Assembly: GCA_026989655.1 (NCBI GenBank)
Contig: JALSIX010000012.1
Location: 1 to 32,225 of the forward strand
Direction: 5' to 3'
DNA: 32,225 nt
DNA from: Caldilineaceae bacterium
GTDB lineage: Bacteria; Chloroflexota; Anaerolineae; Caldilineales; Caldilineaceae
Shown here: one piece after another, positions 8,302-28,900 of the stretch
How the letters are laid out: each line of letters begins with the position of its first letter
Numbering within the stretch: position 1 is the first letter of the stretch
Program-made: the position numbers and the translations under genes
Notes under the pieces: generated by a model
The model's input: the letters and a program-made list of their open reading frames with translations, nothing else
Told to the model about the DNA's origin: nothing
Database searches by the model: none

Positions 8302-8321
8302 CCACAGCCCTTCCAACTGCC

Positions 8322-11996: not shown

Positions 11997-12021
11997 GCAT
12001 GAAAGGGAACAGGGACACGCG

Positions 12022-13893
12022 ATGCAGGTGGTGATCACAGGCGGTACAGGCTTTATCGGGTCCCGGTTGGCCCTTCGGTGCCTGGCCGAGGGCCACCGGG
12101 TGCGGGTCCTGGGCCAGGAGAACACCCCCGCGGAGGCCCGGAACCGGGCCCAGCTGGAGGCCGAGGGCGTGGAGGTCCACCTGGGCTCGGTGACGGATCG
12201 GAGACAGGTGTTCTCGACCATCCAGGGGGCGGACTGGGTCTTCCACCTGGCCGCGGCCCAACACGAGGCCAATGTGCCGGATCGGCACTTCTGGGACGTG
12301 AACGTGGAGGGAACCCGCAATGTCCTGGAGGCCTGTGTCGCGGCCCAGGTCCAGCGGCTGGTCCACGGCAGCACCATCGGCGTGTACGGCTCCGCGCTGG
12401 CAGGCCCCCTGGACGAGTCGTCCCCGGTCCGACCGGACAACATCTACGGGAGGACGAAGCTGGAGGGAGAGCGCCTGGTCCTGGCCCACCAGGAGCGGCT
12501 GCCGGCAGTGGTGGTCCGCATCTCCGAGACCTACGGCCCGGGCGATCTGCGGCTGTTGAAGCTCTTCCGGGCCATCCAGAAAGGGGCCTTCTTCCTGATC
12601 GGCGATGGCCAGAACCTGCATCACCTGATCTATGTGGAGGACCTGGTCCGGGGCCTTCTCCAGGCTGCAGCCTCGGAGGAGGCTGCGGGACAGGTCTTTG
12701 TCCTGGCTGGGAAGGAGGCCCTGACCACCCGGGAGATGGTGGAGACCATTGCCCAGGCCCTGGGCGCTCGGCTTCCCCGCATCTCCGTTCCCCTGCTGCC
12801 GGTCCTGGGGGTCGCGGTGGCCATGGAGACGGTGTTGCGGCCGCTGGGCATCCAGCCTCCGCTCCACCGTCGGCGCATGGACTTCTTCCGCAAGAGCTTC
12901 CATTTCTCCAGCCACCGCGCGGCCGAGGTGTTCGGTTTCCGTCCGGAGGTCTCCTTTGCCGAGGGGGTGCGGCGGACCCTCCGCTGGTACGTGGAGCAGG
13001 GCTATCTGTCCTCCGCACATCTCCCTTCAGGGGGGGCTCACCTTCCCACCCGGGCCAACGGCCGTGTTCAGAGCCCGGCCCCGGCTTCCCCGGAGCGGGC
13101 CGGCCCGGAGGCCGAGGAGGTGGATGCCCAGCCCTACGCCCAGACCGCGGAGGCCGGCGTCCTCTCCTCCCAGGAATTGGCCGCCCAGATCGAGCCCTTC
13201 GACTCCTTCTGGGAAGGGCCCGAGGACGTGGCCTCGGGGTATGCCCGGTTCGGACAGTTCTATCGGGTGAACTACCTGCCCCGCCTGCCCCGAGATCGGG
13301 ACGCGCGCATCCTGGTGGTCAGCTGTGGCCCGGGCTACTTCGTGAACCTGCTCCAGGAGGAGGGATACACCCAGGTTCTCGGCATCGACTCGGATCCGGC
13401 CAAGGTGGAACATGCCCGGCAGCGGGGTCTGAACTGCCGGGTGGCCCGGGCCTTCGAGTTCCTCCAGGGGACGGCCCCCGAGTCGTACGACCTGATCATC
13501 TGTGAGCAGGAGCTGAACCACTTGACCAAGCGGGAGATGGTGGCCTTTCTCCACCTGTGTCGCCGTGCATTGGCCATGGACGGGATGTTGGTGGTCCACG
13601 GCCTGAACGGCGCGAACCCCATCACCGGTGCCGAGGCTCTGGCCCAGAACTTCGACCATTTCAACACCTTCACGGCCTATTCCCTGGCACAGGTGCTGGC
13701 CTACTGTGGGTACGATCGGATCTCGGTGTTCCCGCTCAACCTGTACGTGTTCTACTCCAATCCCTTCAACTACGTGGCCATGGCCTGGGCGGGCCTGAAC
13801 GCCCTGCTCTTCCGGCTGAACTTCATGCTGTACGGCAAACACAACAAGATCTTCACGAAGAAGATCGGGGCTGTCTGTCGCAGGGGGCAGTGA
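12022..13893 (+). CDS. Fusion of NAD-dependent epimerase/dehydratase and SAM methyltransferase
   Basis: 623 residues from ATG 12022 (AGGGA upstream), 25 bases after the carbamoyltransferase. Residues 1-~325 are an extended short-chain dehydrogenase: MQVVITGGTGFIGSRL with the GxxGxxG nucleotide motif, HLAAAQ, HGSTIGVYG, and the catalytic Y142-x3-K146 in NIYGRTKLEGER, with HHLIYVEDLVRG further on, as in 3-beta-HSD-like and sugar-nucleotide epimerases. Residues about 335-395 are a Pro/Ala-rich linker. The remaining part is a class I methyltransferase with motif I as VVSCGPGYF (residues about 432-440), acidic motif VLGIDSDPAKVEHA and DLIICEQELNHL. The two activities probably act in succession on one sugar intermediate. 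I see no frameshift; the fusion is one continuous frame. Substrate unknown. Confidence 0.9.
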   Translation: MQVVITGGTGFIGSRLALRCLAEGHRVRVLGQENTPAEARNRAQLEAEGVEVHLGSVTDRRQVFSTIQGADWVFHLAAAQHEANVPDRHFWDVNVEGTRNVLEACVAAQVQRLVHGSTIGVYGSALAGPLDESSPVRPDNIYGRTKLEGERLVLAHQERLPAVVVRISETYGPGDLRLLKLFRAIQKGAFFLIGDGQNLHHLIYVEDLVRGLLQAAASEEAAGQVFVLAGKEALTTREMVETIAQALGARLPRISVPLLPVLGVAVAMETVLRPLGIQPPLHRRRMDFFRKSFHFSSHRAAEVFGFRPEVSFAEGVRRTLRWYVEQGYLSSAHLPSGGAHLPTRANGRVQSPAPASPERAGPEAEEVDAQPYAQTAEAGVLSSQELAAQIEPFDSFWEGPEDVASGYARFGQFYRVNYLPRLPRDRDARILVVSCGPGYFVNLLQEEGYTQVLGIDSDPAKVEHARQRGLNCRVARAFEFLQGTAPESYDLIICEQELNHLTKREMVAFLHLCRRALAMDGMLVVHGLNGANPITGAEALAQNFDHFNTFTAYSLAQVLAYCGYDRISVFPLNLYVFYSNPFNYVAMAWAGLNALLFRLNFMLYGKHNKIFTKKIGAVCRRGQ

Positions 13894-15134
13894 GCTTGCG
13901 CATCCTGTTCTGCAACTACGAGTATCCCCCGTTGGGCGGCGGCGGCGGGGTGGTGAACGCGTGGCTGGCCGCGGAGCTGGCCACGCGGCACGAGGTGACG
14001 GTGCTCACATCCCAGCCGCGGGGCCTGCCACATCTGCGGATGGAGGAGGGCGTTCGGATCCTGGGGGCACCGGTCCTGTTGCGATGGCAGCGCTCGGTGG
14101 CCAGCCTGCCCTCCATGTTGGCCTTCGTCCTCTCCGGCCTCTGGGTGGGTCGCCGCCTCCTGGCCCAGGAGCGCTTCGACGTGGTCAACACCCACTTCGT
14201 CCTGCCCACCGGGCCCGTGGGCGACGCGCTCTCCCGCTGGGCAGGGATCCCCAACGTCCTCTCTCTCCATGGGGGGGATCTGTACGACCCCAGCAAGTGG
14301 ACCTCGCCCCACCGCCATGGGATCCTGCGTCTGTGGATCCGCCGTCTGTTGCGTCGCGCGGACCAGGTGGTGGGCCAGTCCGCGAACACCCTGGCGAACA
14401 TGCGGCGCTTCTACACCCCGGAGCTCCAGGGAGTGCGGATCCCCTTGGGCATTCGCCGTGTGCCCCAGGGCCTTCCGCCGGCGGAGCGAGAGGTGTTCGG
14501 CCTCACCTCCGGGGACGTGGTGCTGGTCACGGTGGGCCGCCTGGTGGCTCGCAAGGCTGTGGACCAGCTCCTGCGGGTGGTGGCGGAGCTGCCGGCCCAT
14601 GTCCATCTCCTGGTGGTCGGGGACGGCCCCCAGCGGGCCAACCTGATCTCCCTGGCCCAGACGTTGGGGCTCCAGTCCCGGGTGCGCTTCCTGGGCTATG
14701 TGGACGAGAGCACCAAGCTTCGCCTCCTGAAGATGGCCGATCTCTATGTGTCCACCAGCCAGCACGAGGGCTTTGGCCTGGTCTTCCTGGAGGCCATGGC
14801 CTGCGGTCTGCCGGTGTTGGCCTACGACCACGGGGGGCAGCGGGACTTTCTCCTGGATGGTCGGACCGGCTACCTCGTGCCCCTGAACCGGCACGAGCAG
14901 TTCCTCCGCCGGTGCCGTGTCCTGGTGGAGGATGGTTCCATGCGTCGGGCGATGGGCGCCTTCAACCGGATGCATGTGGAGCGGTTCTACATCGACCGGT
15001 GTGCGGCACGCTACGAAGCGGTCTTCGAGCAGGTCGTCCAGGCCCGGCTGCAGGATCCAGCCCCTGCAAGTGTGGCCCCCTCTTCCCGCGAGCCGGTGTC
15101 CTCGACCGACACCGGGCCGCGATCGCGAGGTTGA
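13890..15134 (+). CDS. Family 4 glycosyltransferase (GT-B fold)
   Basis: 414 residues with GTG start at 13890 overlapping the previous stop (GTGA) and AGGGGG just upstream; TTG at 13896 is an alternative. The N-terminus SLRILFCNYEYPPLGGGGGV has the glycine-rich acceptor loop seen in GT4 enzymes. The second Rossmann domain starts near GDVVLVTVGRLVARKAVDQL, continues with LLVVGDGPQRANL, VRFLGYVDESTKLRLLKMAD, and the donor-binding SQHEGFGLVFLEAMACGLPV (the E-x7-E motif). It is a retaining glycosyltransferase that adds a sugar from a nucleotide donor during cytoplasmic glycan assembly. Coupled by overlap to the fusion gene and by two bases to the AsnB gene, so the three are probably co-translated. 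Confidence 0.92.
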   Translation: MSLRILFCNYEYPPLGGGGGVVNAWLAAELATRHEVTVLTSQPRGLPHLRMEEGVRILGAPVLLRWQRSVASLPSMLAFVLSGLWVGRRLLAQERFDVVNTHFVLPTGPVGDALSRWAGIPNVLSLHGGDLYDPSKWTSPHRHGILRLWIRRLLRRADQVVGQSANTLANMRRFYTPELQGVRIPLGIRRVPQGLPPAEREVFGLTSGDVVLVTVGRLVARKAVDQLLRVVAELPAHVHLLVVGDGPQRANLISLAQTLGLQSRVRFLGYVDESTKLRLLKMADLYVSTSQHEGFGLVFLEAMACGLPVLAYDHGGQRDFLLDGRTGYLVPLNRHEQFLRRCRVLVEDGSMRRAMGAFNRMHVERFYIDRCAARYEAVFEQVVQARLQDPAPASVAPSSREPVSSTDTGPRSRG

Positions 15135-15136
15135 AC

Positions 15137-17095
<1,959 letters not shown>

Positions 17096-17212
17096 GAGCG
17101 TTCTCGGTTCGGCCGCACCGGAGCGAACCCGGGGCCATGGCCCGGATCGGGGCGCGGTGGCGACATCTCTCCCCATCCCATTCCAGAGATCCGCGAACGG
17201 AAAGGGCTATCC

Positions 17213-19027
17213 ATGCGAAGGTGGATGCGAGGCAGGCGAATCGGCTGGGCGATCCTGGTGGTGGGAGGTGTGTTCCTGGTGGGCCTCGGCAGTTGGCTGT
17301 GGCTGGGCATGGGAGGAGAGCGGCTGTGGTTGGCCCACCAGTTCCGGCAGTGGTGGCTGTATCGAAGCTACGCGGAGCAGGTTCGTCTTCTGAAGGCCTT
17401 GGACGTGCAGCGAGACGGATATGTGCGGGTCCGGGTCTTCGACCTCTCCGCCGATCCAGGAACAGGAGCGGACAGCCAGGTCCCTGGAGTCCACTATGTC
17501 CTCCAGTCGCCGGCAACGGAGGTCTGGGACACCGACATCCGGGGCTTTCTCGACGGTGAGGTGAAGTATCCGTTCAACCAGGCCACCGCGTATCACATGC
17601 GGGTGGGACGGCGGTACAACGGCGAGATCCACGGGGAGTACGAGCTCAAGCGAAGCCTCATCCGCTGGAAACTGCCCCGGATCCCCCGGTCCTCCCGGGT
17701 CGTGTCGGCCACGGTGACCCTGAACGTGGAGCCTGCCCTCACCGATTCCCCTCCCATCCAGGAGCTGCACTTCTACCTGTATCCACTGGGTGAGGAGTGG
17801 ACCCCTGGCGCCGGCGGGGTGGAACGCGACAGCTTTTCCCCCGCGGCACCTGGCGAGGTCACCTGGAACGAGGCCCGGGCCGGCGAGAAGAGCTGGCCTG
17901 CCCCAGGAGCCCTCGCGATCAACGGGGAAGAACCGATGACCTACTACCGGGCCCAGCCCCTGGCCATGGCCCACTGGCGCCGAGGGCAGGAGGTCCTGGT
18001 CTTCCAGGGAGCTCGGTTGGCCGCATACATCGAGGCGGTGAGCCGCGCGGGCGGCTCCTCCCTCAACGTGTTGGTCAAGCTCGACGATATCGAGGAGGAT
18101 GCCTGGGGCACCGAGACGGGGATCTTCACCTCGGATTTCGGCGACGACAAGGACTTCCCCAGCAGACGGCCGAGGTTGGAGTTCTGGCTCGGCGGGGTGA
18201 CACCGGTGATGGACGAGCGCTATCCCTTCGTCCTGGAGGCCGGCATGGCCTCGCCGGAGTACACCGTTGCCCTGCCCAGGGGAAACGCCCTGGTGGCCAT
18301 CGACGTGGAGCCCCTGGAATCGGGGCGCGCTCCTCCCCAGATCTGGGTGCAGATCCCTCCGGACACCCCAGGCGGCCAGGCGACCTGGGAGCGGTACGTC
18401 TCGCCCCAGGTCATGGCCCAGGATTCCATGACCTTCCGGCTGACCACCGCGTTGAACTCCGTGGAGTGGGGCGATCCCTTCCAGATCGAGCTCCTGGAGA
18501 CCTGGGTCCAGCCCGGCCCGCGGGACGAGCAGGTTCCGGAGATGCTTCTGTTGGCGCCGTCGGGGCGCCTCTATCGGGTCCTCGGGGCCCCTGTGTCGGA
18601 TGTCGCGTACCGGATCGTGGTCCGACCGGACGAGGTGGGCCTCTGGCGCTATCTGTGGTCGTTTGCACCCATGCCGGAGACGCCGCCGAACGGCCATATG
18701 GGAACGGGGCTCTTCTTCGTGACCATCACGCCGACCCCAGCCAATGTCCAGCGCCTCCACGCGTTTGCCGCGCATATCGAGCGGGAGCTCCGATCTGTCC
18801 CGGTCTACGACCTGGGCCTGCAACAGCAGGTCAACGCCCTGATCCGGTTGACCGCTCGGTTCTCCTCCGGTGGGAGCTCGAACGGGGAGCTGGAGATGCC
18901 GTCCCTGCGCGCGTTGCGTGCCCGGATGGCGGACAACGAGGCCCGCATGCGTCGCTCGTTCTGGGGCCGAGTGCAGCATTTCATCGCCAAGCGTGTCGTC
19001 GCGGACATCCTGTCCATGGGCGATTGA
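17213..19027 (+). CDS. Membrane-anchored beta-rich protein of unknown function (DNRLRE/CBM96-like region)
   Basis: 604 residues; AAAGGG precedes ATG 17213. Residues about 10-32 are one N-terminal membrane segment (IGWAILVVGGVFLVGLGSWL) that looks like an uncleaved anchor. The rest is extracytoplasmic and beta-rich. Residues about 150-275 resemble a DNRLRE-type jelly roll: SATVTLNVEP, LHFYLYPLGEEWTPG and VTWNEARAGEKSW. A later beta sandwich (VEWGDPFQIELLETW ... RIVVRPDEVGLWRYLWSF) looks like the N-terminal domain of some surface glycosidases. The C-terminal 90 residues are helical and charged. I do not recognise a catalytic motif. Its place in the operon suggests a surface protein acting on or displaying the glycan, but that is inference. 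Confidence 0.75.
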   Translation: MRRWMRGRRIGWAILVVGGVFLVGLGSWLWLGMGGERLWLAHQFRQWWLYRSYAEQVRLLKALDVQRDGYVRVRVFDLSADPGTGADSQVPGVHYVLQSPATEVWDTDIRGFLDGEVKYPFNQATAYHMRVGRRYNGEIHGEYELKRSLIRWKLPRIPRSSRVVSATVTLNVEPALTDSPPIQELHFYLYPLGEEWTPGAGGVERDSFSPAAPGEVTWNEARAGEKSWPAPGALAINGEEPMTYYRAQPLAMAHWRRGQEVLVFQGARLAAYIEAVSRAGGSSLNVLVKLDDIEEDAWGTETGIFTSDFGDDKDFPSRRPRLEFWLGGVTPVMDERYPFVLEAGMASPEYTVALPRGNALVAIDVEPLESGRAPPQIWVQIPPDTPGGQATWERYVSPQVMAQDSMTFRLTTALNSVEWGDPFQIELLETWVQPGPRDEQVPEMLLLAPSGRLYRVLGAPVSDVAYRIVVRPDEVGLWRYLWSFAPMPETPPNGHMGTGLFFVTITPTPANVQRLHAFAAHIERELRSVPVYDLGLQQQVNALIRLTARFSSGGSSNGELEMPSLRALRARMADNEARMRRSFWGRVQHFIAKRVVADILSMGD

Positions 19028-19105
19028 GAGGTCCAGACCCATGGCTTGGGAGTCGCGAGACAGATATAGATGCCGGTAGGGTTCGCAGGGGGGCGCGGGG
19101 AAACC

Positions 19106-20101
19106 ATGAAACACTTGAAGACCGTTGTACGGGTTGCCCTGAGCGCCGTGCTGCTGGGCTACCTGCTCTACATGGTCGATCTGGACCAGGCCGAGGGGCT
19201 CGTCCGCCAGGGGCGCCCCCTCTACATCCTGGCGGCCCTGGGGATCGCGCTCTTCGACCGGTGGCTGATGGCCTACAAGTGGGTCATTCTGTTGCGGGTC
19301 AAGCGGATCGCGCTGACCGTACGCCAGGCCACGGAGGTGTACTGGACCTCCACCTTTCTGGGGGTGTTCCTGCCGGCTACCGTGGGCGGAGATGCCCTGC
19401 GCTTCCTCGCGATCTGGCGGCGGGGATTCCCGTCCCGCGATGTCATCGCCTCCATCATGGTGGAGCGGCTGCTGGGCTTCGTGGCCTTGTTCGCCTTCCT
19501 GGCCCTCAGCATCTTCCTGAACCTCACCCTCTCGCCTGGACTGCTGCCTGAGACGGTCTGGCGTCCGCTGCGGCTCGTGGCTCTGGGCGCCCTGGCCCTG
19601 ACCGGCCTGTTTGCCCTGACGATGCACCCGCAGGCCGCCCGGCTCTTCGCGAGGGGCTCTGGCCGGGTCCATGGACGGCTCGGGGCCATTCTGGCCAAGG
19701 TCCGCTCCTTCTACCAGGCCTATCTGGGATACAAGGACCATCCGATGGCCCTGTCCCAATTCCTGGCCCTGTCCCTGTTCGAGAACCTGCTGCCCCTGAC
19801 CTGGACCTACCTGCTGGCCCAGGCCTTTGGGATCCAGATCCCCTTCCTGTACTACTTCGTCCTCATCCCCATTGTGCTGGTGTTGGTGCGGCTGCCCATC
19901 TCCTTCGACGGCTTCGGGGTGCAGGAAGGGGCCTTCGTCTATCTGCTCTCCCTTGTGGGGACGCCGGCAAGCGATGCGTTCTTCCTGGGCCTGACCAGCC
20001 ACATCCTGGCACTGATCTCTGTGTTGCCCGGAGGAGTCCTGTATGCCCTGGGGGGCCTTGAGGGGTACGGCGATTCCAAGTTGGGTGTCCGGACCGAATG
20101 A
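19106..20101 (+). CDS. Flippase-like membrane protein (LPG synthase TM / UPF0104 family)
   Basis: 331 residues from ATG 19106 (GGGGAAA upstream); an upstream in-frame ATG at 19070 adds 12 unlikely residues. About eight hydrophobic helices. Typical family segments are VALSAVLLGYLLYMVDLDQA at the N-terminus, LMAYKWVILLRVKRI, TSTFLGVFLPATVGGDALRF, VERLLGFVALFAFLAL, and RLPISFDGFGVQEGAFVYLL near the C-terminus. The family includes the membrane part of lysylphosphatidylglycerol synthase and AglD-like proteins and is common in glycan and glycolipid clusters. Roles proposed are lipid or lipid-linked sugar translocation, but the biochemistry is poorly defined. There is no soluble aminoacyl-transferase domain, so lysylation is not expected. 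Its TGA (20099-20101) overlaps an ATG at 20098. Confidence 0.88.
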   Translation: MKHLKTVVRVALSAVLLGYLLYMVDLDQAEGLVRQGRPLYILAALGIALFDRWLMAYKWVILLRVKRIALTVRQATEVYWTSTFLGVFLPATVGGDALRFLAIWRRGFPSRDVIASIMVERLLGFVALFAFLALSIFLNLTLSPGLLPETVWRPLRLVALGALALTGLFALTMHPQAARLFARGSGRVHGRLGAILAKVRSFYQAYLGYKDHPMALSQFLALSLFENLLPLTWTYLLAQAFGIQIPFLYYFVLIPIVLVLVRLPISFDGFGVQEGAFVYLLSLVGTPASDAFFLGLTSHILALISVLPGGVLYALGGLEGYGDSKLGVRTE

Positions 20102-20124
20102 GAACGACCACAGCGAGGGTATCG

Positions 20125-21249
20125 ATGGGAAATGATCGGCGGTGGTCCTGGATCGTCCTCTGGCTGCTTCCTCTCCTCGGGGTCGGGGGGCTTCTCGTCT
20201 CCCTCACCCTTGGAAGACCCCTGTTGCAGTACGTGGGGATCCTGGGGCCTGGGGAACCGCCCTACCCGTGGAGCGAACGGATCGTGGGGGTGGAGTTCGA
20301 CTGGGAAACGCACCAGGAGATGGCCGAGGGGAGCGACAACTGGGCGGTGACGTGGTACCGAGACGATATCCAGTTCACCACATGGGGGGACGGTGGAGGC
20401 TTTGGCGGCACAAACACCGCAGGGCGGGTCAGCTTGGGGGTGGCACGGCTGGAAGGAGAGTGGCCCACGTTTCGTGCACGCAATGTGTGGGGCGGGTATG
20501 AGGCGGAGCACCCCGCCCAGTTCGGGGGCAAGAGCTACGGGATCCTGGCCATCGGGGAGACGCTGTACATGTGGGTCTCCCCCGGATCGGATGCGGAGAA
20601 CTACCGAGAGGCCCGGCTGGCCCGCTCCATGGATGGAGGGGCGACGTGGGAACGGGCGCCCTGGGCGTTCACCCAGGAGGAGGGGCTGATCCTGCCCACC
20701 TTTGCCCAGTTTGGACCGGGTTACGCGGACGCCTACGATGGATATGTGTACATCTACGCGGCTCGCCTGCAGGATGGACGGGAGCTGAAGGTGCAGAAGC
20801 CGGGCTACATCGATCTGGTCCGGGTGCCCCGAGAGGAGCTCTGGGATCGCTCGGCGTACGAGTTCTTCGCCGGACTGGACGGCGCCGGGAAACCCCGGTG
20901 GACCGGGGCCCTCGCGGACCGGGAGCCGGTCTTCCAGAACGCGGCCGGGGTGGGATGGACGGTGAGCGTGACCTACAACCGAGGGCTGGGCCGTTTTCTG
21001 TTGGCCACGGAGCACACCGCGAGCTTTCGGGGGAATCTGGGGCTGTACGAGGCGCCCACACCCTGGGGACCGTGGCGGACGGTGGGGTACTATGCCAACT
21101 GGGGCAGGTATGGTTCGACGTTCTTCTGGAACTTCTCGAACCGGTGGACGAGTGAGGACGGGCGTCGGTTCGTGCTGATCTTCACCGGGACGGGAAGGAA
21201 CGACTCGTGGAACGCCCTGCAGGGCGTCTTCCAGGTGGCTCCTCGCTGA
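20125..21249 (+). CDS. Membrane-anchored DUF4185-like protein, copy 1
   Basis: 374 residues from ATG 20125, chosen for GAGGG five bases upstream; ATG 20098, which overlaps the previous stop, would add nine residues. An N-terminal hydrophobic segment (WIVLWLLPLLGVGGLLVSLT) acts as anchor or signal. The rest is one domain beginning PPYPWSERIVGVEFDWETHQ, with GSDNWAVTWYRDD, TWGDGGGFGG, RVSLGVARLEG, YMWVSPGSD, LARSMDGGATWERAPWAF and WNFSNRWTSEDGRRFVLIFT. These motifs match my recollection of DUF4185, a beta-propeller-like family related to glycoside hydrolases, with blade-like SxDGGxTW repeats. Enzymatic activity is not established. It ends the glycan operon. It is the shorter partner of the protein at 21682-24990. 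Confidence 0.82.
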   Translation: MGNDRRWSWIVLWLLPLLGVGGLLVSLTLGRPLLQYVGILGPGEPPYPWSERIVGVEFDWETHQEMAEGSDNWAVTWYRDDIQFTTWGDGGGFGGTNTAGRVSLGVARLEGEWPTFRARNVWGGYEAEHPAQFGGKSYGILAIGETLYMWVSPGSDAENYREARLARSMDGGATWERAPWAFTQEEGLILPTFAQFGPGYADAYDGYVYIYAARLQDGRELKVQKPGYIDLVRVPREELWDRSAYEFFAGLDGAGKPRWTGALADREPVFQNAAGVGWTVSVTYNRGLGRFLLATEHTASFRGNLGLYEAPTPWGPWRTVGYYANWGRYGSTFFWNFSNRWTSEDGRRFVLIFTGTGRNDSWNALQGVFQVAPR

Positions 21250-21521: not shown

Positions 21522-21681
21522 GGACATCGGCGGATCGCGCTAAGCCATTCTTCGGGTTCGGTGCGAGCCGAGCCGAGACGGGACACCAGCCGGTTCCTGA
21601 TCTGCGCCTATGAGGAGGAAGGGAGTTCCGGGGATCTTCCGGAGCCATGACGGTTGTCCGCCCCTGGGAGGCACAGGACAC

Positions 21682-24600
21682 ATGCATCGGAAACAGCTTG
21701 GGACTTTGTTCGGCGGCCTGGCCATCCTCGCCCTGATCGGTGTGTATCTCTTCGGGGGGGCTGCCCGCGCGGCCTGGCCCTCCCGGATTCCAGCCGGTGC
21801 CGCCCAGCTTTCCGGGGAACCACCCTACCCGTGGAGCGAGCGGATCGTGGGGGTGGAGTTCGATTGGGAGACGCACCAGGAACTGGCGGCGGGGAGCGAC
21901 AACTGGGCGGTGACGTGGTCTGGGGATGGGAACCAGTATGCCGCGTGGGGAGATGGAGGCGGGTTCGGCGGCAGCAACTCCCTGGGACGGGTGAGCTTGG
22001 GGGTGGCCCGCCTGGAGGGCGGATGGCCGGATTTTCGCGGGGTGAACGTGTGGGGCGGGTATCGGAGCGAGCATCCTGCCCAGTTCGGGGGCAAGAGCTA
22101 CGGGATCCTGGCCATCGGGGAAACGCTGTACATGTGGGTCTCCCCGGGCTCGAACACGGAGAACTACCGGGAGGCCCGGCTGGCCCGCTCCATGGATGGA
22201 GGGGCGACGTGGGAACGGGCGCCCTGGGCGTTCACCCGGGACGAGGGACTGGTGTTGCCCACCTTCGCGCAGTTTGGGCCAGGCTATGCGGACGCGTGGG
22301 ATGGGTATGTGTACGTCTACTTCATCCGCCTGGTGGACAGCTCTCGCCTGGGAATCCAGCAGCCGGGGCGGATCGATCTGGCCCGGGTGCCGTTGGAGCG
22401 GCTGTGGGATCGTTCGGCCTATGAGTTCTTCGGGGGCGTGGATGGGAGCGGGACACCTCGCTGGACCGGAGACCTGCGCGCCCGGGAGCCGGTCTTCCAG
22501 GACGCGGCCGGGGTGGGGTGGACGGTGAGCGTGACCTACAACCGAGGGCTGGGCCGTTTTCTGTTGGCCACGGAGCACACCGCGAGCTTTCGAGGGAATC
22601 TGGGGCTGTACGAGGCGCCCACACCCTGGGGGCCGTGGCGGACGGTGGGGTACTACACCAACTGGGGGGGCTATGGCTCGGTGTTTTTCTGGAACTTCTC
22701 GAACCGGTGGACGAGTGAGGACGGGCGTCGGTTCGTGCTGATCTTCACCGGGACAGGGGGGAACGATTCGTGGAACGCCCTCCAGGGCGTCTTCCAGGTG
22801 GCCGGCGATGGGCCCACTCCGCCCACGGCCACCCCGTCCCCCCCGCCGACCTCCACCCCCACCCCGACCCCTGTGGTCACAGGGCCATCCCCTGGCCTGG
22901 GACGGGTCGAGGACGGTCTGTTGTCCCTCTATCTGTTCGACGAGGGGCAGGGAACCATGGTGCGCGATCGCGGGGGCTCCGGCCTCTCCCTGGACCTCCG
23001 GATCGACCTGCCGGATCGGGTCCAGTGGCTGGAGGGGGCCTTGACCGTGGGAGGAGGTGTGCGTCTTGTCTCCACGGCCAATGCCCAGGGGCTTGTACAG
23101 CGGGTCAAGGCCGCGAATGAGCTGACGGTCGAGGCCTGGATTCGACCCTCCAGCCTCCAACCGGACGGACCGGCCCGGATCCTGGCCATCTCCCAGGACA
23201 AGTACAACCAGAACTTCGTCCTGGGCCAGGCGCGGGATCGGTTCGATGTCCGGTTCCGGACCACGGAGACCGACAGCAGCGGCCGTCCTTCCCTGCGTTC
23301 GCCCCAGGGAGATCTCCAGCTCCAGCTCATGCATGTGGTCTACACCCGAGATTCCGGCGGCACGGCTCGCCTCTACATCAACGGGGTCGAGCGCAGCCGG
23401 GCCCTTGTCGGGGGCGACCTGACCGCGTGGAACGAGGCCTATTCCCTCATCCTGGCCAATGAGTTCGGCGCGGATCGTCGATGGCAGGGCACATACCACC
23501 TGGTGGCTCTCTATGCTCGGGCACTGAGCGCCGGGGAGGTCCTCCAGAACTATCAGGCAGGCCCCGACCCCGAGCTGAGCCCAGACCCTCCTGCCACCCC
23601 GACGCCCTCCCCCACGCGGACACCGACAGCAGCCCCGCCCCCGGGAAGTGGACAGGCCCAGATCCGGGTGCAGCCGGAGCGCGCCACGGTCCACGTTGGC
23701 GAGACCTTTCGGGTGGATCTGGTCGTGGTCACCGGTGACCAGGCCCTCGACGGCGCTGCAGCCTACCTGGACTTCGATCCCGCGGTGCTGCAGGTGGTCT
23801 CGGTGGTGCCCGGCGATCGGCTCTCCACGGTCCTCTCCAACACCTACGACAACGGCCGGGGTCATGTGGACTTCGTCGCCGGCACGCTGGGCACCCCGGT
23901 CACCGGCACGTTCACCCTGGCCACCGTGACCTTCCGGGCCATCGCGGCCCGCGCGGAGACCCCCCTGCGTCTGGGCGAAGCCGCGCCCCGGGCCACGGAT
24001 CTCACCTGGAAGGGGGTCTCCATGCTCGGCCAGCGGCAGGGGAGCTCTCTCCAGGTGATGCCTGGCGCCTCCCTGCGGGCCACGGTACGCCTGGAAGGGC
24101 GCCCACAGCCGCCCCACGAGCGCTGGATCACCCCCCTCTTCGTCCGTCTGACACCCCTGGGAGCCCCGGGCCCGGGCCATGCGTTCACCGTGCAGACGGA
24201 TACGTCCGGGAAGTTTCGGATCGCCGACATCCCGCCCGGAGACTACGTCCTCGAGGTGGAGAACCACCATACCCTGGCACGTTCCAGCACGGTGGCGCTG
24301 GTGGCTGGGGAGAACGAGGTGGATATGGGGCTGCTGCTGGAAGGGGATGCCGTGGACGACGAGGTGGTGGACCTGCTGGACTTCTCCCTCCTGGCCGCGG
24401 GCTTCGGCCGATGTGGTCTGGAGGGCATCGACATCACCCCCATCGATTTCGACGAGGACGGCTGTGTCACCATCCAGGACTTCTCGTTGTTGGCGAAGAA
24501 CTATGGGGAGACGGCTGTTCCCTCGGCTGGGGCCGGGACAGAGCTCATCGGCTGGCTTCCGGGCAGGCAGGAGGGCGAACGCTTCACCGTCCAGATCACC

Positions 24601-24990
24601 GTGAGCGGCGAGTCCGGCCAACAGGTCGACGCCGTCGCCCTGCACCTCCAGATGGATCCCGATCTGGTCCGGGTCAGGGAGGTGCGCCTGGCAGATTCGC
24701 CGCTGACCACCGAGCTGACCCGCTCCTGGGACAACGCCTCGGGAGCCATCGATGTGGCTGTGGGCAGTCTGGGCGGCGGGGCCTCCACGCCCTTCTCCCT
24801 GGCCACCCTGGAATTGGAGGCTGTCCGCACCTTCTCCCGGGCTCCTCTGGCCCTGCGCGGGACCGCCCCTCGCACCGGGGCAGCCCATTCCGGCATCCTG
24901 TTCCCGGTCCAGATCGAATACGATGGAGCCGCCCAGGTGCGCCTGCGGGTGTCCGCGCACCGGCTGTATCTGCCCCACATCCGCCGGTGA
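21682..24990 (+). CDS. Secreted multidomain protein: DUF4185-like, LamG-like, cohesin-like, dockerin-like
   Basis: 1102 residues from ATG 21682 (GGGAGG ten bases upstream); the frame is open to 21610 but a signal peptide begins here (hydrophobic LGTLFGGLAILALIGVYLF, cleavage likely near GAARA-AW). Order: DUF4185-like domain (about 45-373, paralogue of the preceding gene); Pro/Thr linker (374-405); LamG/concanavalin-like jelly roll (409-627; ELTVEAWIRPSSL, ARLYINGVE); Pro/Thr linker; cohesin-like domain (659-793; VHVGETFRVDLVV, AAYLDFDPAVLQVVSVVPG); carboxypeptidase-regulatory-like domain (795-887; GKFRIADIPPGDYVLEVE); dockerin-like pair (888-946; the second loop DFDEDGCVTIQDFSLLAKNY is canonical, the first degenerate); a second cohesin-like domain (953-1093); and the tail RLYLPHIRR. 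No glycosidase catalytic site was identified. Probably an exported surface adhesin or glycan-binding protein. Confidence 0.85.
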   Translation: MHRKQLGTLFGGLAILALIGVYLFGGAARAAWPSRIPAGAAQLSGEPPYPWSERIVGVEFDWETHQELAAGSDNWAVTWSGDGNQYAAWGDGGGFGGSNSLGRVSLGVARLEGGWPDFRGVNVWGGYRSEHPAQFGGKSYGILAIGETLYMWVSPGSNTENYREARLARSMDGGATWERAPWAFTRDEGLVLPTFAQFGPGYADAWDGYVYVYFIRLVDSSRLGIQQPGRIDLARVPLERLWDRSAYEFFGGVDGSGTPRWTGDLRAREPVFQDAAGVGWTVSVTYNRGLGRFLLATEHTASFRGNLGLYEAPTPWGPWRTVGYYTNWGGYGSVFFWNFSNRWTSEDGRRFVLIFTGTGGNDSWNALQGVFQVAGDGPTPPTATPSPPPTSTPTPTPVVTGPSPGLGRVEDGLLSLYLFDEGQGTMVRDRGGSGLSLDLRIDLPDRVQWLEGALTVGGGVRLVSTANAQGLVQRVKAANELTVEAWIRPSSLQPDGPARILAISQDKYNQNFVLGQARDRFDVRFRTTETDSSGRPSLRSPQGDLQLQLMHVVYTRDSGGTARLYINGVERSRALVGGDLTAWNEAYSLILANEFGADRRWQGTYHLVALYARALSAGEVLQNYQAGPDPELSPDPPATPTPSPTRTPTAAPPPGSGQAQIRVQPERATVHVGETFRVDLVVVTGDQALDGAAAYLDFDPAVLQVVSVVPGDRLSTVLSNTYDNGRGHVDFVAGTLGTPVTGTFTLATVTFRAIAARAETPLRLGEAAPRATDLTWKGVSMLGQRQGSSLQVMPGASLRATVRLEGRPQPPHERWITPLFVRLTPLGAPGPGHAFTVQTDTSGKFRIADIPPGDYVLEVENHHTLARSSTVALVAGENEVDMGLLLEGDAVDDEVVDLLDFSLLAAGFGRCGLEGIDITPIDFDEDGCVTIQDFSLLAKNYGETAVPSAGAGTELIGWLPGRQEGERFTVQITVSGESGQQVDAVALHLQMDPDLVRVREVRLADSPLTTELTRSWDNASGAIDVAVGSLGGGASTPFSLATLELEAVRTFSRAPLALRGTAPRTGAAHSGILFPVQIEYDGAAQVRLRVSAHRLYLPHIRR

Positions 24991-25066: not shown

Positions 25067-26218
25067 CTAGAACAGAGCACAGAGGAGATCGGCCATGGCA
25101 TCCACCGGGCCCACTTGCAGGCGGAAGCAGCGGGCCTGGGCCAGCCGTTCCAGGAGTTCAACCGTCAGGGGCAGAGACCGATGGCGGTGTTCCTCCAGGA
25201 CGGCGGAGCGGGTGCCGAGGTGGAACCGCTGGAGAATGTCCGGGATGAGCTCGCTGGGGCGGATCTCCTGGAGTCGGGCCGGCCCTGTGAAGGACGGCCG
25301 ATGCTCTTCCCACTGCCAGACATTCAGGATGGGGGCTCGATGGCGGGCGGCCAGGGCCTCTATCTGGGCCAGCACCGCGTGCTTATCTTGGGCATGGATC
25401 CGCAGCAGGGGAAAGCCGTGCAGCGACCCCTGTTCGACCCGGTGGACATGGGGGTGGGTGTCCAGGGATTGCCGCAGGTCCTCTGGCACCCACTCCATCC
25501 AGATCTGCAGCGGCGCGCGGGTGCGCTCCTCCCAGGATGGGGCGTCGGGGTCGAACAGGGCGACCACGTAGGTCAGCTCGGCCTCTTCTGCAACCTGGCC
25601 CGGGAAGAGCGCTTCCACGTCCACCACGAGCTTGTCCGTCCACGGCATCGTTGCGTTCTCCGGCGGCTGGATCCCCAACAGCTCCAGGGTCTCCGGTCGG
25701 ATCTGGAGGCCCCGGGGAAAGGCGTGGACCCGAGATCTCCCGCGTTCGATGGCGGCCAGATCGTCCGACAGCAGGTGGAATCCACAGCGCAGGAGCTCCA
25801 GCACCAGGGTGGTCTTGCCCCACATGGAGTCGCCCAGGAGGACAAGGGCCCGGCCCTGATGGGCCACGGCTCCGGCGTGGACGAGGAAATGCGTTCGCAC
25901 CCTGCGCAGGATGTCCCGGAGGATGGCCTCCGCGGCGAACCACTCCAGGAGCTCTGGATGGGCCATGGGCCATACCTCCCGGTCCAGGACCACCACGGGT
26001 GTGCTCCAGGGGTTCTCCTGGGCGGCGAAGACCCCATACCTCACCTCCACCTCCTGGAGATATCCCCGGGATACCATGCGTCGATACCGGTGCTGGAAGA
26101 GCTCTGCGAAGGAACGGGAATCCGTGTAGATCGCGGCCATACGGTCGAACGCGTGGAAGCGCCACTGCCAGTGGGCAGCCGCGGAGAGGGCAGCGTGGGT
26201 GGGGGGACGGTCCGGCAC
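25067..26218 (-). CDS. HPr-kinase-like protein (RiPP-associated HprK type)
   Basis: 383 residues from a GTG at 26218 without a clear ribosome binding site; ATG at 26140 (residue 27) is an alternative. The core is diagnostic of the HprK/P kinase fold: FLVHAGAVAHQGRALVLLG, the P-loop GDSMWGKTT (residues 129-137), and HLLSDDLAAIE (149-157) with the paired aspartates near the phosphate site. Canonical HPr kinase has an N-terminal domain and a C-terminal signature that I do not see; residues 1-100 are different and the last 100 residues are unfamiliar. HprK-like proteins accompany RiPP clusters; in the paeninodin lasso peptide system such a kinase phosphorylates the C-terminal serine of the precursor. 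Here it lies 134 bases after a precursor-like peptide gene, with a stem-loop between. It probably modifies that peptide, which is inference. Confidence 0.85.
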   Translation of the reverse strand: MPDRPPTHAALSAAAHWQWRFHAFDRMAAIYTDSRSFAELFQHRYRRMVSRGYLQEVEVRYGVFAAQENPWSTPVVVLDREVWPMAHPELLEWFAAEAILRDILRRVRTHFLVHAGAVAHQGRALVLLGDSMWGKTTLVLELLRCGFHLLSDDLAAIERGRSRVHAFPRGLQIRPETLELLGIQPPENATMPWTDKLVVDVEALFPGQVAEEAELTYVVALFDPDAPSWEERTRAPLQIWMEWVPEDLRQSLDTHPHVHRVEQGSLHGFPLLRIHAQDKHAVLAQIEALAARHRAPILNVWQWEEHRPSFTGPARLQEIRPSELIPDILQRFHLGTRSAVLEEHRHRSLPLTVELLERLAQARCFRLQVGPVDAMADLLCALF

Positions 26219-26287
26219 AGGAGTTTGGCCTGCGGGCTATAGATCCGGAGCGGTGGCAGGTGGGACGAACAGATGAGAGAGACACAC

Positions 26288-26316
26288 ACGAAAGGGGCCG
26301 ACACGACCCCTTTCGT
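26288..26316 (-). promoter_or_regulatory. Perfect stem-loop between precursor peptide and kinase genes
   Basis: ACGAAAGGGG (26288-26297) and CCCCTTTCGT (26307-26316) form a perfect 10-bp stem with a nine-base loop. It begins about 37 bases after the stop of the peptide gene in the direction of transcription. No T run follows (GTGTGTCTCTC), so it is more likely to be a partial terminator or an mRNA-stabilising element, a common arrangement after RiPP precursor genes that lets the precursor outnumber the enzymes. Confidence 0.6.
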
Positions 26317-26352
26317 CCAGCTCTTGGATTGTCGACGTCCGATGGCCAGAGC

Positions 26353-26508
26353 CTATGGGCCGCCAAAGGTGCTGGAGAGACCGGTCTGGGCCGGCCCGAG
26401 CATCTTCCAGAGGGTCTCCTCGTCGTAGGTGACCACGGCGGGGGTCTGATAGGACGGGCGTTCGTCCTTCGGGAGGTGGGACTGGGAAGCGGTCAGGTGT
26501 TTCTCCAT
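26353..26508 (-). CDS. Candidate RiPP precursor peptide (51 residues)
   Basis: 51 residues starting MEKHLTASQSHLPKDE; ATG at 26508 has AGAGGAG upstream. The frame is open to 26625 but the extra residues are rich in Arg/Pro and lack a ribosome binding site. The middle contains YQTPAVVTYDEETLWKML: Y20-x2-P23 matches the YxxP element that PqqD-type recognition domains bind in lasso leaders, followed by an acidic helix. GPAQ (residues 38-41) then marks a possible leader end, leaving TGLSSTFGGP as a ten-residue core rich in Gly, Ser and Thr. There is no N-terminal signal peptide and no cysteine. Neighbours are a kinase, a nucleotidyltransferase and a soluble S24/S26 peptidase. It could instead be a small regulatory protein. 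No family name is certain. Confidence 0.72.
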   Translation of the reverse strand: MEKHLTASQSHLPKDERPSYQTPAVVTYDEETLWKMLGPAQTGLSSTFGGP

Positions 26509-26599
26509 GGGATCACTCCTCTGCTGTGCTGACAAAAGGACCACGGTATCCCGGCCACGGGAACGAATGTGGAGGAAAACGATTTGGAATGGGCATCGC

Positions 26600-26620
26600 C
26601 CCGGGCTGGGTCTGCCCGGG
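26600..26620 (-). promoter_or_regulatory. Hairpin in the leader of the peptide gene
   Basis: CCCGGGC (26600-26606) and GCCCGGG (26614-26620) form a perfect 7-bp stem with a seven-base loop, inside the predicted 5-prime leader about 90 bases upstream of the peptide start. Function unknown; it may be the weak end of readthrough from the nucleotidyltransferase gene. Confidence 0.3.
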
Positions 26621-26648
26621 CCCATGGCACCGAGATAGAGCCGATTCC

Positions 26649-26677
26649 ATCATAGCAGAGATGGCTACCGGGCGCAA
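26649..26677 (-). promoter_or_regulatory. Extended -10 promoter for the precursor peptide gene
   Basis: On the minus strand TTGCGC (complement of 26672-26677) is followed after 17 bases by TATGAT (complement of 26649-26654), directly preceded by TGC, an extended -10 motif. Transcription would start near 26642, giving a leader of about 135 bases before the strong ribosome binding site of the peptide gene. This makes separate, stronger expression of the peptide plausible. Confidence 0.5.
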
Positions 26678-26755
26678 CCCCCCATCCTGTCATCAAGATT
26701 ACAGGCCGGTCCTTCCGGGACGGCCGGAACGGGCGGCCGACTTGGAAGCAGGTGT

Positions 26756-27799
26756 TCACGGCGCTCGACCTGCCACGGCTTGGCGGGCCTTGGCCCAGGC
26801 CTGCCAGGGGCTGTAGGTGGCGTACACCAGGAGCAGCGAGAGCTCCACTTGGCGGCCGAACAGCTCCCGCGGGGGGATCTGGGGCCGCGGCGGCACGGAG
26901 CCGAGGGAGAGGGTGCGGAGCAGGGTCCCAAGGAGACCCCGGATCAGGAGGGCCCGTCCTCTCGGCACGTGGAGGGCATCCAACATGGCCGCGGCGATCT
27001 CTCCCCCAACGGTCCGTTGGACGGTCAGGAGGGCCGTGTACACGATGTTGTTGCAGCGATAGCGCTTGGCCCGCTCTGCCAGGACCTGCCATTCCAGGGC
27101 GGGGCGATAATGGAGCAGGGTCTCTGCGATGTCGAACAGGGACTTCACCCGCAGGTAGCGTTTCCGACAGCTGTTGATGCAGAGGGACAGGACCAGGTCC
27201 TCCGGCCTCATCACGTACACGGTCTCGCCGTCGAGGGCCAGGGGCCGGGCTTCCGCCCAGATACGCTGGAAGTCCACGGGGAGGACGCCGTTCAGGGTCA
27301 CATCGTGGTGCTCGAAGTAGTCGAACTCGATCCCCGATCCGTGGAGCCGTCGTTCGAAGAGCCGGTGGGTGGCCTCGTCGATCTCCGAGCGCCGCACATC
27401 CAGGACCAGGTCGATGTCCTCGGAGACGGTGAGCCAGGGAAAGGCATACACGACCTCGGCCAGGGCGCCTCCCTTGATCAGCATCGCGCGAATGCCCGCT
27501 TCCCGGAAGAACCGGAGTGCCTCCACCAACATGCGTCGGCGGCGTTCCTGGAGCAGGGCACTGGAGTACTGGGCCAGCTTGAACTGTCTCTGGACCGGTG
27601 GGGGAATGCCCAGGGCGTCCGGATCCAGGCCCTGGAGATGGTGCCCGACCAGAGGGGCAATCCGATGGGCCTCGGCCTGGCGGAAGAGCGCGGCCCAGTC
27701 GATGACGTGCTCGGAGCAGAGGCGTTCGATCTGGACTCGGTGGGCTTCGGTGAGATGCTGACGTGCAAAGGCCAGGAGCAAGCGATCTTGGGGCTTCAT
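26756..27799 (-). CDS. Nucleotidyltransferase family protein (NTP_transf_5-like)
   Basis: 347 residues from ATG 27799 (MKPQDRLLLAFARQHL); the frame is open to 27940 but the extension is low-complexity and unlike the family. No strong ribosome binding site is visible. A helical N-terminal region (IDWAALFRQAEAHRIAPLVG) is followed by the catalytic core: AMLIKGGALAEVVY (K109, G110, G111) and WLTVSEDIDLVL with D128 and D130 as the metal-binding pair. Further on are LPVDFQRIWAEA and a helical C-terminal half with RPEDLVLSLCINSCRKRYLRVKSLFDIAE. This family of uncharacterised nucleotidyltransferases recurs in RiPP clusters with HprK-like kinases and PqqD proteins and in polysaccharide regions. Here it is upstream of the precursor-like peptide on the same strand. 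The nucleotide and acceptor are unknown. Confidence 0.85.
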   Translation of the reverse strand: MKPQDRLLLAFARQHLTEAHRVQIERLCSEHVIDWAALFRQAEAHRIAPLVGHHLQGLDPDALGIPPPVQRQFKLAQYSSALLQERRRRMLVEALRFFREAGIRAMLIKGGALAEVVYAFPWLTVSEDIDLVLDVRRSEIDEATHRLFERRLHGSGIEFDYFEHHDVTLNGVLPVDFQRIWAEARPLALDGETVYVMRPEDLVLSLCINSCRKRYLRVKSLFDIAETLLHYRPALEWQVLAERAKRYRCNNIVYTALLTVQRTVGGEIAAAMLDALHVPRGRALLIRGLLGTLLRTLSLGSVPPRPQIPPRELFGRQVELSLLLVYATYSPWQAWAKARQAVAGRAP

Positions 27800-28142
27800 G
27801 GACACCGGAAAGCCTGGGACCGGGATGGCTCGGGTTGGTTTCCGAGGACCCGCTGGCACGCCCCCCGGAGATAGGGACGGGGCGTGGACGTCGGTGTTCC
27901 CCGGATCCGCGCCCTGGGGAAGGGTGCCAGGGCTGGGCAACGGCGCCTCCTCCAGGGTATCAGAGGGCCAGGCTTCGCTCTCTAGAGATCAGGATACACG
28001 GATGCAGAGCTGCCCGATATGGTCGATCTCTCCCGATTCTCGTAAGCAGGGATTGAGGCAATTGGCCTATCCCATCCAGCCCAACGATGTAGTTCAATGG
28101 AGCAGGACCGGGTTCCCTTTCAGAGCGACAAGGACGATGACG
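27800..28142. other. Spacer between nucleotidyltransferase and small membrane ORF
   Basis: About 340 bases without a recognisable gene. It includes the perfect palindrome TCTCTAGAGA (27979-27988) and an A/T-richer stretch at 28030-28100. I could not find a promoter with good -35 and -10 elements in either direction, although both the nucleotidyltransferase gene (minus) and the small ORF (plus) would need one here unless the former is read from upstream. Confidence 0.4.
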
Positions 28143-28289
28143 ATGATCTGGCTCCTGGGCGGCTTTCTGCTGGCAGAGATGGTGTTCTGGTATCTGGATC
28201 ATCAGCAACGGCTCATCCAGAACCGTCGCCTGTACGAGGCTCTGGTCAGGCGCGCCCGTGAGGAGGAGGGCTACGGGCCCGTCTCCTGA
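28143..28289 (+). CDS. Small predicted membrane protein (48 residues)
   Basis: ATG 28143 has AAGGA about eight bases upstream; ATG 28137 would add two residues. The protein starts MIWLLGGFLLAEMVFWYLDH: a single hydrophobic helix, then an Arg/Glu-rich amphipathic tail (LIQNRRLYEALVRRAREEEG). The change from a hydrophobic to a charged helix is typical of genuine small membrane proteins, and the upstream part of this frame does not look coding. Its 3-prime end overlaps the convergent S24/S26 peptidase gene by 19 bases. It is on the opposite strand from the surrounding cassette. Function unknown; it may be chance. Confidence 0.45.
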   Translation: MIWLLGGFLLAEMVFWYLDHQQRLIQNRRLYEALVRRAREEEGYGPVS

Positions 28290-28900
28290 GACGAGCCGCG
28301 CTCCACCGTTCGGATCAGTTTCTGGCGTAGCCGCAGCAAACGCTGTTTCCACACCCCTTGTCCCAGCCGCAACACCGGCTCGAGCCATCGGCCCAGTGGG
28401 CTCTCCTGGGCTCCTCTTGCGAGCCGGTAGGCCTTTTCGCTCCCCCACGAGAGGACCGAGAGCACCCGGCCGAGATATCGCCCGAGCCGAGAGTCCAGGC
28501 GGATGTATCGGCCATTGGGGCGGACAATGCCCACCACCCGTCCCAATATCTGCTCGTCGCGGACCGGTGGATCCGGGGTGAGCGTGTTGTCCCCCTTGGT
28601 CAACCAGGTCCGTCCGTCGCGGTTCCGCCGGACTTCCAGGACCCGATGGGCGATCAGGCCCCTCTCCGTGTGGAAGACGATCACATCGCCCACACGGATG
28701 CCCTGGGTTCCCGGCGAGACGAGCAGCAGATCGCCTTCCGCGATCAGGGGGAGCATGCTGCTGCCCACGGCCGGGACACGGCGGATCCGCTCTCCTTCCT
28801 GCTGCCATAGGACGATGACGGAGCGGAGGAGGGCCTCGGAGATCCGGTTGGCCTCTGTCGGGCCGTCCTCGGCTGCCGTGGCGCCTGGCTTCTCGTCCAT
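28271..28900 (-). CDS. Soluble S24/S26 family peptidase (signal-peptidase-like)
   Basis: 209 residues, ATG 28900, seven bases after the ftsK stop, so probably co-transcribed with it. The catalytic dyad is visible: S48 in VGSSMLPLIAEGD and K102 in TWLTKGDNTLTPD, with GDVIVFHTERGLIAHRV between, as in type I signal peptidases and LexA-like proteases. It lacks the expected N-terminal membrane anchor: residues 1-40 are charged (EALLRSVIVLWQQEGERIRR) and there is no strong hydrophobic helix elsewhere. The C-terminal 70 residues are basic and amphipathic. It is therefore unlikely to be the general signal peptidase. Such S24/S26 proteins occur with nucleotidyltransferase and HprK-like genes in RiPP-like loci, where they might cleave a precursor. 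That link is inference. Confidence 0.85.
   Translation of the reverse strand: MDEKPGATAAEDGPTEANRISEALLRSVIVLWQQEGERIRRVPAVGSSMLPLIAEGDLLLVSPGTQGIRVGDVIVFHTERGLIAHRVLEVRRNRDGRTWLTKGDNTLTPDPPVRDEQILGRVVGIVRPNGRYIRLDSRLGRYLGRVLSVLSWGSEKAYRLARGAQESPLGRWLEPVLRLGQGVWKQRLLRLRQKLIRTVERGSSQETGP

Follow-up and report, generated by a model that had tools for sequence, protein, structure and literature searches.

The window analysed here is a 32,225-nucleotide stretch of DNA from a Caldilineaceae bacterium (Chloroflexota), one entire contig (G000:C12) of a 4.09-Mb genome that is assembled in 150 contigs and is 99.17% complete. It carries a compact cassette of four genes, encoding a short precursor peptide, an HprK-like kinase, a nucleotidyltransferase-fold protein and a soluble signal peptidase-like enzyme. 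This cassette probably makes a modified linear peptide of the kind known as Linear Polyphosphorylated Peptides (LPPs), here by a reduced gene set, and not a lasso peptide. It is a member of an apparently undescribed, multi-phylum family of peptide-modifying systems, the GPAQ cassettes, defined by a peptide with the motif YxxP...LGPAQ[ATG] together with a long-form HprK-like kinase, both of which the window genome encodes. A first-pass annotation of the window had already grouped the four genes, and the sequence confirms their positions and their collinear arrangement on the minus strand. The order of transcription is S26 peptidase, NTP_transf_5 protein, peptide and kinase, all downstream of ftsK:

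28271..28900, minus strand: anchorless ER/archaeal-type signal peptidase (S26/S24), 209 amino acids, Ser48/His85/Asp104
26756..27799, minus strand: NTP_transf_5 nucleotidyltransferase-fold protein, 347 amino acids, KG...DxD motif intact
26356..26508 (26353 with the stop codon), minus strand: precursor peptide, 51 amino acids, motif shared with a 38-member family
25067..26218, minus strand: HprK/PEPCK-fold kinase, 383 amino acids, P-loop GDSMWGKTTL, with a C-terminal extension common to the family

The window peptide (MEKHLTASQSHLPKDERPSYQTPAVVTYDEETLWKMLGPAQTGLSSTFGGP) starts at an ATG with AGAGGAG about 7 nt upstream. It consists of a leader, ...YQTPAVVTYDEETLWKMLGPAQT, and a core, GLSSTFGGP, which has Ser at +3 provided that the cut, whose position we infer, falls after LGPAQT. 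The YxxP and GPAQ motifs noticed in this 51-residue peptide at first pass recur in a family of 38 peptides from Chloroflexota, Acidobacteria, Aminicenantes, Planctomycetes, Verrucomicrobia and others. The first seven members were found without a DNA pattern. When 61 relatives were searched at the protein level, homologues turned up next to the kinase or close to it in three genomes of the same family as the host (G012, G013, G034), along with a second peptide in the window genome itself (contig C38) and one in G054; motif and profile gave a fourth same-family relative with the peptide, G020. The first-pass annotation had made its proposal depend on conservation of the peptide beside homologous kinases, and such conservation is found in G012, G013, G034 and G020. 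Run on one genome per species (84,980 species), a degenerate DNA pattern matched 40 stretches, of which about 30 are real; L091, L097, L098, L100, L102, L105, L107, L109, L110 and L115 were excluded as chance pattern matches. Across the 38 peptides the leader reads Y1-x-x-P4-x-[VIL]6-x-[TS]8-[YFW]9 ... [ILFV]14 ... L18-G-P-A-Q-[ATG]23, with rare exceptions at positions 18, 21 and 22; Y1, P4, G19 and P20 are present in all 38. The DNA pattern itself fixes Y1, P4, L18, G19, P20, A21 and Q22. However, positions left free in it are also constrained, position 6 being V, I or L, position 8 T or S, and position 23 A, T or G, each in 38 of 38. The sequence after position 23, the core, is variable, as in GLSSTFGGP (window), CSPSPCPTYQ, CTSPCPVP, VYGNLGDSI, GYVKGDSAF and YGGG...RLFPGLR.

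Core variation follows the enzyme content of the genomes. A SPASM radical-SAM enzyme with a fused PqqD domain was detected at E<1e-70 in 9 of 28 genomes tested, by a profile built from eight of the nine positives (G054 is the one outside). The core starts with [A/T]-Cys in all nine of these genomes, as against one of the 19 without the enzyme (Fisher p about 1e-6), and in that lone genome, G481, a more distantly related radical-SAM protein is encoded next to PqqD. The Cys-core branch is exemplified by cassette L104 (PqqD, radical-SAM, peptide), whose peptide contains the stretch ACSFGHSVIECG. The tracking of the Cys core with the radical-SAM enzyme speaks for the peptide as the substrate on which the cassette acts, and it is our best evidence on this point; it also makes the chemistry directly testable. 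The same correlation bears on a different explanation, namely, that the surface-glycan locus upstream (5.6-21 kb) is what the kinase and nucleotidyltransferase work for, with the peptide as an accessory or regulator rather than their substrate. The cassette is close to the glycan locus, and Acidobacteria have the peptide and PqqD by polysaccharide-export genes. However, the cassette is on the strand opposite to the glycan genes, the core varies with radical-SAM presence as expected for a substrate, and kinase and peptide are found together in different phyla although the surrounding genes differ, all of which make a glycan-serving role improbable.

Linkage of the kinase to the peptide is recurrent. 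A long-form kinase homologue adjoins the peptide gene in L043, L045, L046, L087, L099, L116 and L117, and is one gene off, with a radical-SAM gene between, in L081, L082 and L104. At E<1e-35 the long form is present in 17 of 22 peptide genomes, and in 10 of 15 when only genomes outside the profile are counted. At E<1e-25 it is present in none of 399 other Chloroflexota genomes (best 7e-25), and the peptide is in none of these either; in these large scans, scoring was confined to the best few candidates of each genome. Another test that had been set for the proposal was whether the four genes are ever found together elsewhere. Peptide, kinase, S26 peptidase and nucleotidyltransferase are together not only in the window but in G034/L045, G474/L215 and G483/L219. 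The reading of a YxxP-leader precursor of the type found in ribosomally synthesized and post-translationally modified peptides (RiPPs), a kinase, a nucleotidyltransferase and an S26 peptidase as one system is thus borne out by a gene set that recurs across phyla. Many relatives have additional components, among them a protease of family C25 and a secreted protein with a fibronectin type III-like (FN3) tail; the gene content of five cassettes is as follows:

L215: peptide, radical-SAM, kinase, C25, S26, nucleotidyltransferase
L217: PqqD, peptide, radical-SAM, FN3-tailed protein, kinase, C25, nucleotidyltransferase
L218: C25, radical-SAM, kinase, S26, peptide
L219: C25, peptide, kinase, S26, nucleotidyltransferase
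L220: FN3-tailed protein, PqqD, peptide, radical-SAM, kinase, C25, S26

PqqD, radical-SAM and C25 are all linked to the peptide in L104/L220, L217, L082 and L081.

The window enzymes keep their catalytic motifs. The P-loop of the kinase, GDSMWGKTTL, is intact, as had been noted, and its GK..L core is kept across the family. The AlphaFold2 model of the kinase (pLDDT 88.7) matches PEPCK (Z 16.6, 277 residues aligned, 4.2 A) and HprK/P structures in the PDB. The assignment of the second enzyme to NTP_transf_5 is secure, with 115.9 bits to PF14907 against a cut-off of 31.2, and its residues K109, G110, D128 and D130 are invariant in an alignment of eight cassette members. The third, correctly described as an anchor-less S24/S26 peptidase, scores 65.5 with TIGR02228, the model for archaeal-type signal peptidase I, whose cut-off is 51.85; it matches Sec11A and keeps the Sec11-type Ser48/His85/Asp104 in an alignment of eight cassette members. 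It has no hydrophobic anchor or transmembrane segment (maximum 19-residue Kyte-Doolittle value 1.35), and it is the likely leader peptidase. The kinase is weakly similar to HprK_rel_A (TIGR04352; 41.1 bits vs a cut-off of 200). GPAQ cassettes are like the HPr-rel-A system (TIGR04352/TIGR04353) in having an HprK-related kinase and, in relatives of the window, a PqqD partner, but the GPAQ kinases score 41-57 bits (cut-off 200) and the PqqD of one cassette 13.7 (cut-off 35). Similarly, SPASM radical-SAM maturases (mycofactocin MftC, StsB, PapB) have an N-terminal PqqD-like region, as does the enzyme of the Cys-core branch, but the cassette enzymes are far under the cut-offs of the maturase models (best 148.8 vs 625, and 140.9 vs 265).

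The LPP precedent was not part of the first-pass annotation; neither were the C25 protease and the secreted partner. LPPs, the nearest characterised system, were described in Nat Commun in 2026 from the lpp cluster of Paenibacillus alginolyticus (PMC13381572). In that cluster, the HprK-like LppK places one to four phosphates onto core Ser3; LppB is a RiPP recognition element (RRE) that binds YxxP, and the RRE is needed for leader cleavage in vitro; and LppS, an archaeal-type signal peptidase with the triad S29/H68/D93, cuts after T-1 (PMC13381572). LPPs and the window have in common a YxxP-leader precursor with a variable core, an HprK-like kinase, an archaeal-type signal peptidase with Ser/His/Asp, and an NTP transferase (PF14907 in the window; LppN likened to it by description). 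LPP clusters are also often in polysaccharide loci and have no cyclase, as is the case here (PMC13381572). In spite of these similarities there are clear differences. The LPP leader is YxxPxVLxHQxIxFETxxS, whereas that of the GPAQ family is YxxPx[VIL]x[TS]Y....[IL]L..LGPAQ[ATG], and the window keeps only YxxPxV of the former. LPP clusters have a discrete RRE and an MsbA-like exporter, both missing from the window, although PqqD is present in relatives' cassettes, such as that of G034 (L045:5896-6165). The core Ser that is phosphorylated in LPPs is not conserved across the GPAQ family. The GPAQ relatives add a PqqD-fused radical-SAM enzyme, C25 and the FN3-tailed partner, none of which is in the text of the LPP paper, and GPAQ cassettes occur outside Bacillota, to which LPPs were stated to be restricted (PMC13381572). 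As three LPP features (RRE, leader motif and exporter) are missing, the window set is not filed as an LPP system but, by analogy, is taken to be LPP-like in its working. The GPAQ family carries the LPP type of cassette, confined to Bacillota in the 2026 report, into a number of other phyla, where the leader is different.

Since the window kinase, nucleotidyltransferase and S26 peptidase are of LPP types with intact motifs, phosphorylation, possibly glycosylation or nucleotidylation, and leader removal are the likely reactions. The YxxP...LGPAQ[A/T/G] segment would be the leader, to be bound by the PqqD-type RRE that most relatives encode. No PqqD is detectable in the window genome, so leader binding would fall either to the window enzymes or to a domain borrowed from elsewhere. 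The HprK-like kinase would phosphorylate the peptide, in the window most plausibly at a Ser just past the leader (GLSST), and the NTP_transf_5 protein may then put a sugar or a nucleotide on the phosphate. The soluble signal peptidase-like enzyme would cut off the leader at or beside LGPAQT; the small residue that is fixed after LGPAQ fits a signal-peptidase -1 site.

Several observations weigh against an LPP-like product. All members of the GPAQ family are known from genes alone. A conserved Ser for phosphorylation was not found in the cores of the family peptides, and three cores (L044, L088, L116) are without Ser or Thr past position 23. Two of these are in kinase loci, so that core-Ser phosphorylation cannot be general and the kinase may have another target. 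In LPPs, deletion of lppN had no visible effect, and a role of the NTP transferase went undetected (PMC13381572). The S26 protein of L215 has Cys at the catalytic Ser position. There is no exporter beside the window cassette, nor an MsbA-like exporter among the annotated window genes. Finally, PqqD is missing from the window genome while LPP cleavage needed the RRE in vitro, and the cassette could therefore be decaying.

The absence of PqqD, which the first-pass annotation had thought unusual, is real in this assembly. Pfam finds none in the window genome, and a cassette-specific profile gives nothing credible (best E 0.12). The possibility that PqqD was overlooked by a weak model was rejected, as the cassette-specific profile was also empty. 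Domain scans reveal no RRE fused to another window cassette protein. The window genome likewise lacks a full-length C25 (a partial match of 20.8 bits is below the cut-off), and the PqqD-fused radical-SAM enzyme was not found in it. However, the lack of PqqD is not a property of the system, as relatives encode it. Since PqqD, and often the radical-SAM enzyme, are present elsewhere in the system, the window genome carries a reduced form; the absence of PqqD, C25 and radical-SAM is a trait of this genome, from which PqqD and C25 appear to have been lost. Reduction could have gone as far as loss of function, leaving a decaying remnant: neither PqqD nor full-length C25 is found in a 99.17% complete genome, and no partner protein lies by the window peptide. 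However, the four reading frames are open, the catalytic motifs are intact, and the window peptide shows the family motif without flaw; the genome also retains a second peptide along with its partner. A non-functional cassette therefore seems unlikely. With no RRE detectable, the window genome offers a natural experiment on whether enzymes of this kind can do without one.

HprK-like kinases and nucleotidyltransferases are also known from lasso clusters. In the paeninodin/pseudomycoidin systems an HprK-like kinase attaches a phosphate to the peptide, on which a nucleotidyltransferase places a hexose (PMC8498205); enzymes of both types are found here. In contrast to those systems, the window cassette lacks a macrolactam cyclase, and its core offers no acceptor for a macrolactam. 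A B2 leader peptidase was not found among the annotated window genes, and no genome-wide search for B2 was made. The statement that lasso core enzymes are missing holds for the cyclase but requires a correction, in that the window does have an asparagine-synthase-type protein (about 15.2-17.1 kb, plus strand). This protein scores as an XrtA/exopolysaccharide (EPS)-type amidotransferase or AsnB (522 bits with TIGR03108; 444.5 with asn_synth_AEB, above that model's cut-off), and against the lasso cyclase model it scores 230.5, far under the cut-off of 525. A paeninodin-type lasso system with its core enzymes elsewhere in the genome would account for the kinase and nucleotidyltransferase, which occur in such clusters (PMC8498205), and for YxxP, a lasso leader element. 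However, the core, GLSSTFGGP or TGLSSTFGGP, has no Asp/Glu at position 7-9 for a macrolactam, and no cyclase-like gene adjoins the GPAQ peptide in relatives. In G020, lasso-type clusters (L183, L184) are present separately, with a different HprK-like kinase. Such a system is very improbable, and a lasso peptide with remote core enzymes was rejected on account of the missing PqqD, the missing macrolactam acceptor and the EPS type of the amidotransferase. That the window has neither a cyclase nor an annotated B2 is explained by the system's not being of the lasso kind. The lasso-type loci of G020 (L183:5168-10121, L184:3667-7447) have an asparagine-synthase-like gene, PqqD, an HprK-like kinase and a small peptide; G020 also holds a separate GPAQ cassette.

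In the wider family the peptide is associated with secreted proteins. A protein with a C-terminal domain of about 105 residues (...SFTA....V.L.WETA.E.DNAGFNIYRA...G.Y.KIN..LIPA.G....GA.Y.F.D...G.Y.Y.LEDVD..G.ST.HGPV...) is encoded next to the peptide in 21 of the 39 peptide loci, on the same strand in all 21. In these loci the domain is at or near the end of the secreted partner and the peptide gene is at most 1.1 kb from it. At two further loci, L117 and L118, the same domain is encoded in the neighbouring gene. The domain is predicted to be an FN3-like sandwich (pLDDT 89); it has no Pfam or NCBIfam model, and its PDB relatives are generic FN3 domains only. An FN3-tailed partner was not found beside the window peptide itself, nor at the peptide loci of the Acidobacteria branch. 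However, the best domain match in the window genome (5.9e-44; next 1e-7) falls in a gene that 65 bp separate from the gene of the second peptide, the two forming a pair on contig C38 (L042). The window genome would thus retain the modifying half of the system in the window, plus a peptide/secreted-protein pair elsewhere.

C25 is the peptidase family of the gingipains and of PorU, the sortase of the type IX secretion system (T9SS). A gingipain-type C25 gene is directly 3' of the kinase in most full cassettes; in the window, a convergent gene occupies this position. As the peptide is encoded with an FN3-tailed secreted protein, and often with a secreted C25, the product in the wider family probably acts at the cell surface, where it would be partnered with or attached to the FN3-tailed protein. 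T9SS PorU/gingipain C25 proteases and their cargo offer a parallel, since there too C25 goes with secreted proteins that have a conserved C-terminal beta-sandwich; unlike there, C25 here is tied to a small precursor peptide and a kinase, including in Chloroflexota. The literature searched, a limited set of papers, has no description of the GPAQ leader, the FN3-tailed partner or the C25 link, and nothing tying C25 to PqqD, HprK or radical-SAM RiPPs. The coupling of LPP-like peptides to surface proteins and C25 seems to be new, and its function we infer from these associations. The FN3-tailed and C25 partners provide a concrete clue to the role of phosphorylated linear RiPPs.

A stronger version of the surface role can be imagined, a multi-phylum system in which every secreted FN3-tailed protein has a small RiPP-type peptide of its own encoded with it. 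This peptide, tailored in the cytosol (phosphorylated, and radical-SAM-modified in the Cys-core branch), would be joined to the partner, or be needed for its processing, through C25 acting as an extracellular transpeptidase. We consider this rather doubtful, but if true, such a peptide-to-protein conjugation or display system would be categorically new. Applied to the window, the idea becomes that C25 joins or exchanges a modified peptide tag or anchor on the FN3-tailed protein and that the window keeps part of the apparatus. The invariable strand agreement between adjoining FN3-tailed and peptide genes, the place of C25 right after the kinase in most full cassettes, and the Por/T9SS-type tail on some partner proteins are all in keeping with it, as is G464, where a single kinase goes with at least seven copies of the peptide, which are spread over separate contigs and mostly adjoin different FN3-tailed proteins. 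However, an acceptor site that is conserved could not be recognised; the domain of the partner is an ordinary FN3-like sandwich that lacks a specific PDB match; full-length C25 is missing from the window genome, although peptide and partner are both there; and adjacency could stem from a shared envelope role alone. Conjugation as the explanation of the window cassette is accordingly rather unlikely.

The peptides of G464, at least seven in number, are near-identical (core CSPSPCPTYQ; L081, L083, L092, L101, L108, L119). In the Acidobacteria (L080, L084, L090, L094, L103, L111), PqqD is found with a GPAQ peptide whose Gly-rich core ends in RLFPGLR or similar; polysaccharide-export-like genes, as judged from sequence, are nearby and the kinase is elsewhere in the genome. 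A second peptide family (YEKPRVVYEAQLEVRAGSP, YQTPEIIYEGELEVQAGSP) is present in L174:540-10381 and L171:7208-14178, with C25, a short HprK-like kinase and FN3-tailed proteins, plus PqqD, S26 or nucleotidyltransferase. It is the same plan as that of the GPAQ cassette with another leader.

Other features of the window are as follows:

26288..26316, minus strand: 13-bp stem-loop without a T-run, between the peptide and kinase genes, fold z-score -2.2
5579-21246, plus strand: surface-glycan locus containing glycosyltransferases

The stem-loop is possibly an attenuator that would hold the level of the peptide above that of the enzymes; an Rfam scan of the window gave no match. The genes of the glycan locus encode a PMT-type mannosyltransferase, GT2, a NodU-like carbamoyltransferase, GT4, the XrtA-type amidotransferase, an LPG-synthase-like membrane protein and a DUF4185 protein. 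At the contig edge (914-3912, minus strand) are contractile tail tube (gp19), sheath and T4-baseplate-like genes, with a BTAD regulator beside them at 4184-5182; together they mark where a locus for a contractile injection or tail-like structure ends. Lastly, the secreted protein encoded at 21610-24990 (plus strand) ends in LYLPHIRR. This C-terminus conforms to [LV][YF]LPxxx[RK], which is also seen on secreted proteins of L042, L044, L045 and L046 and is possibly a C-terminal sorting or anchoring signal.

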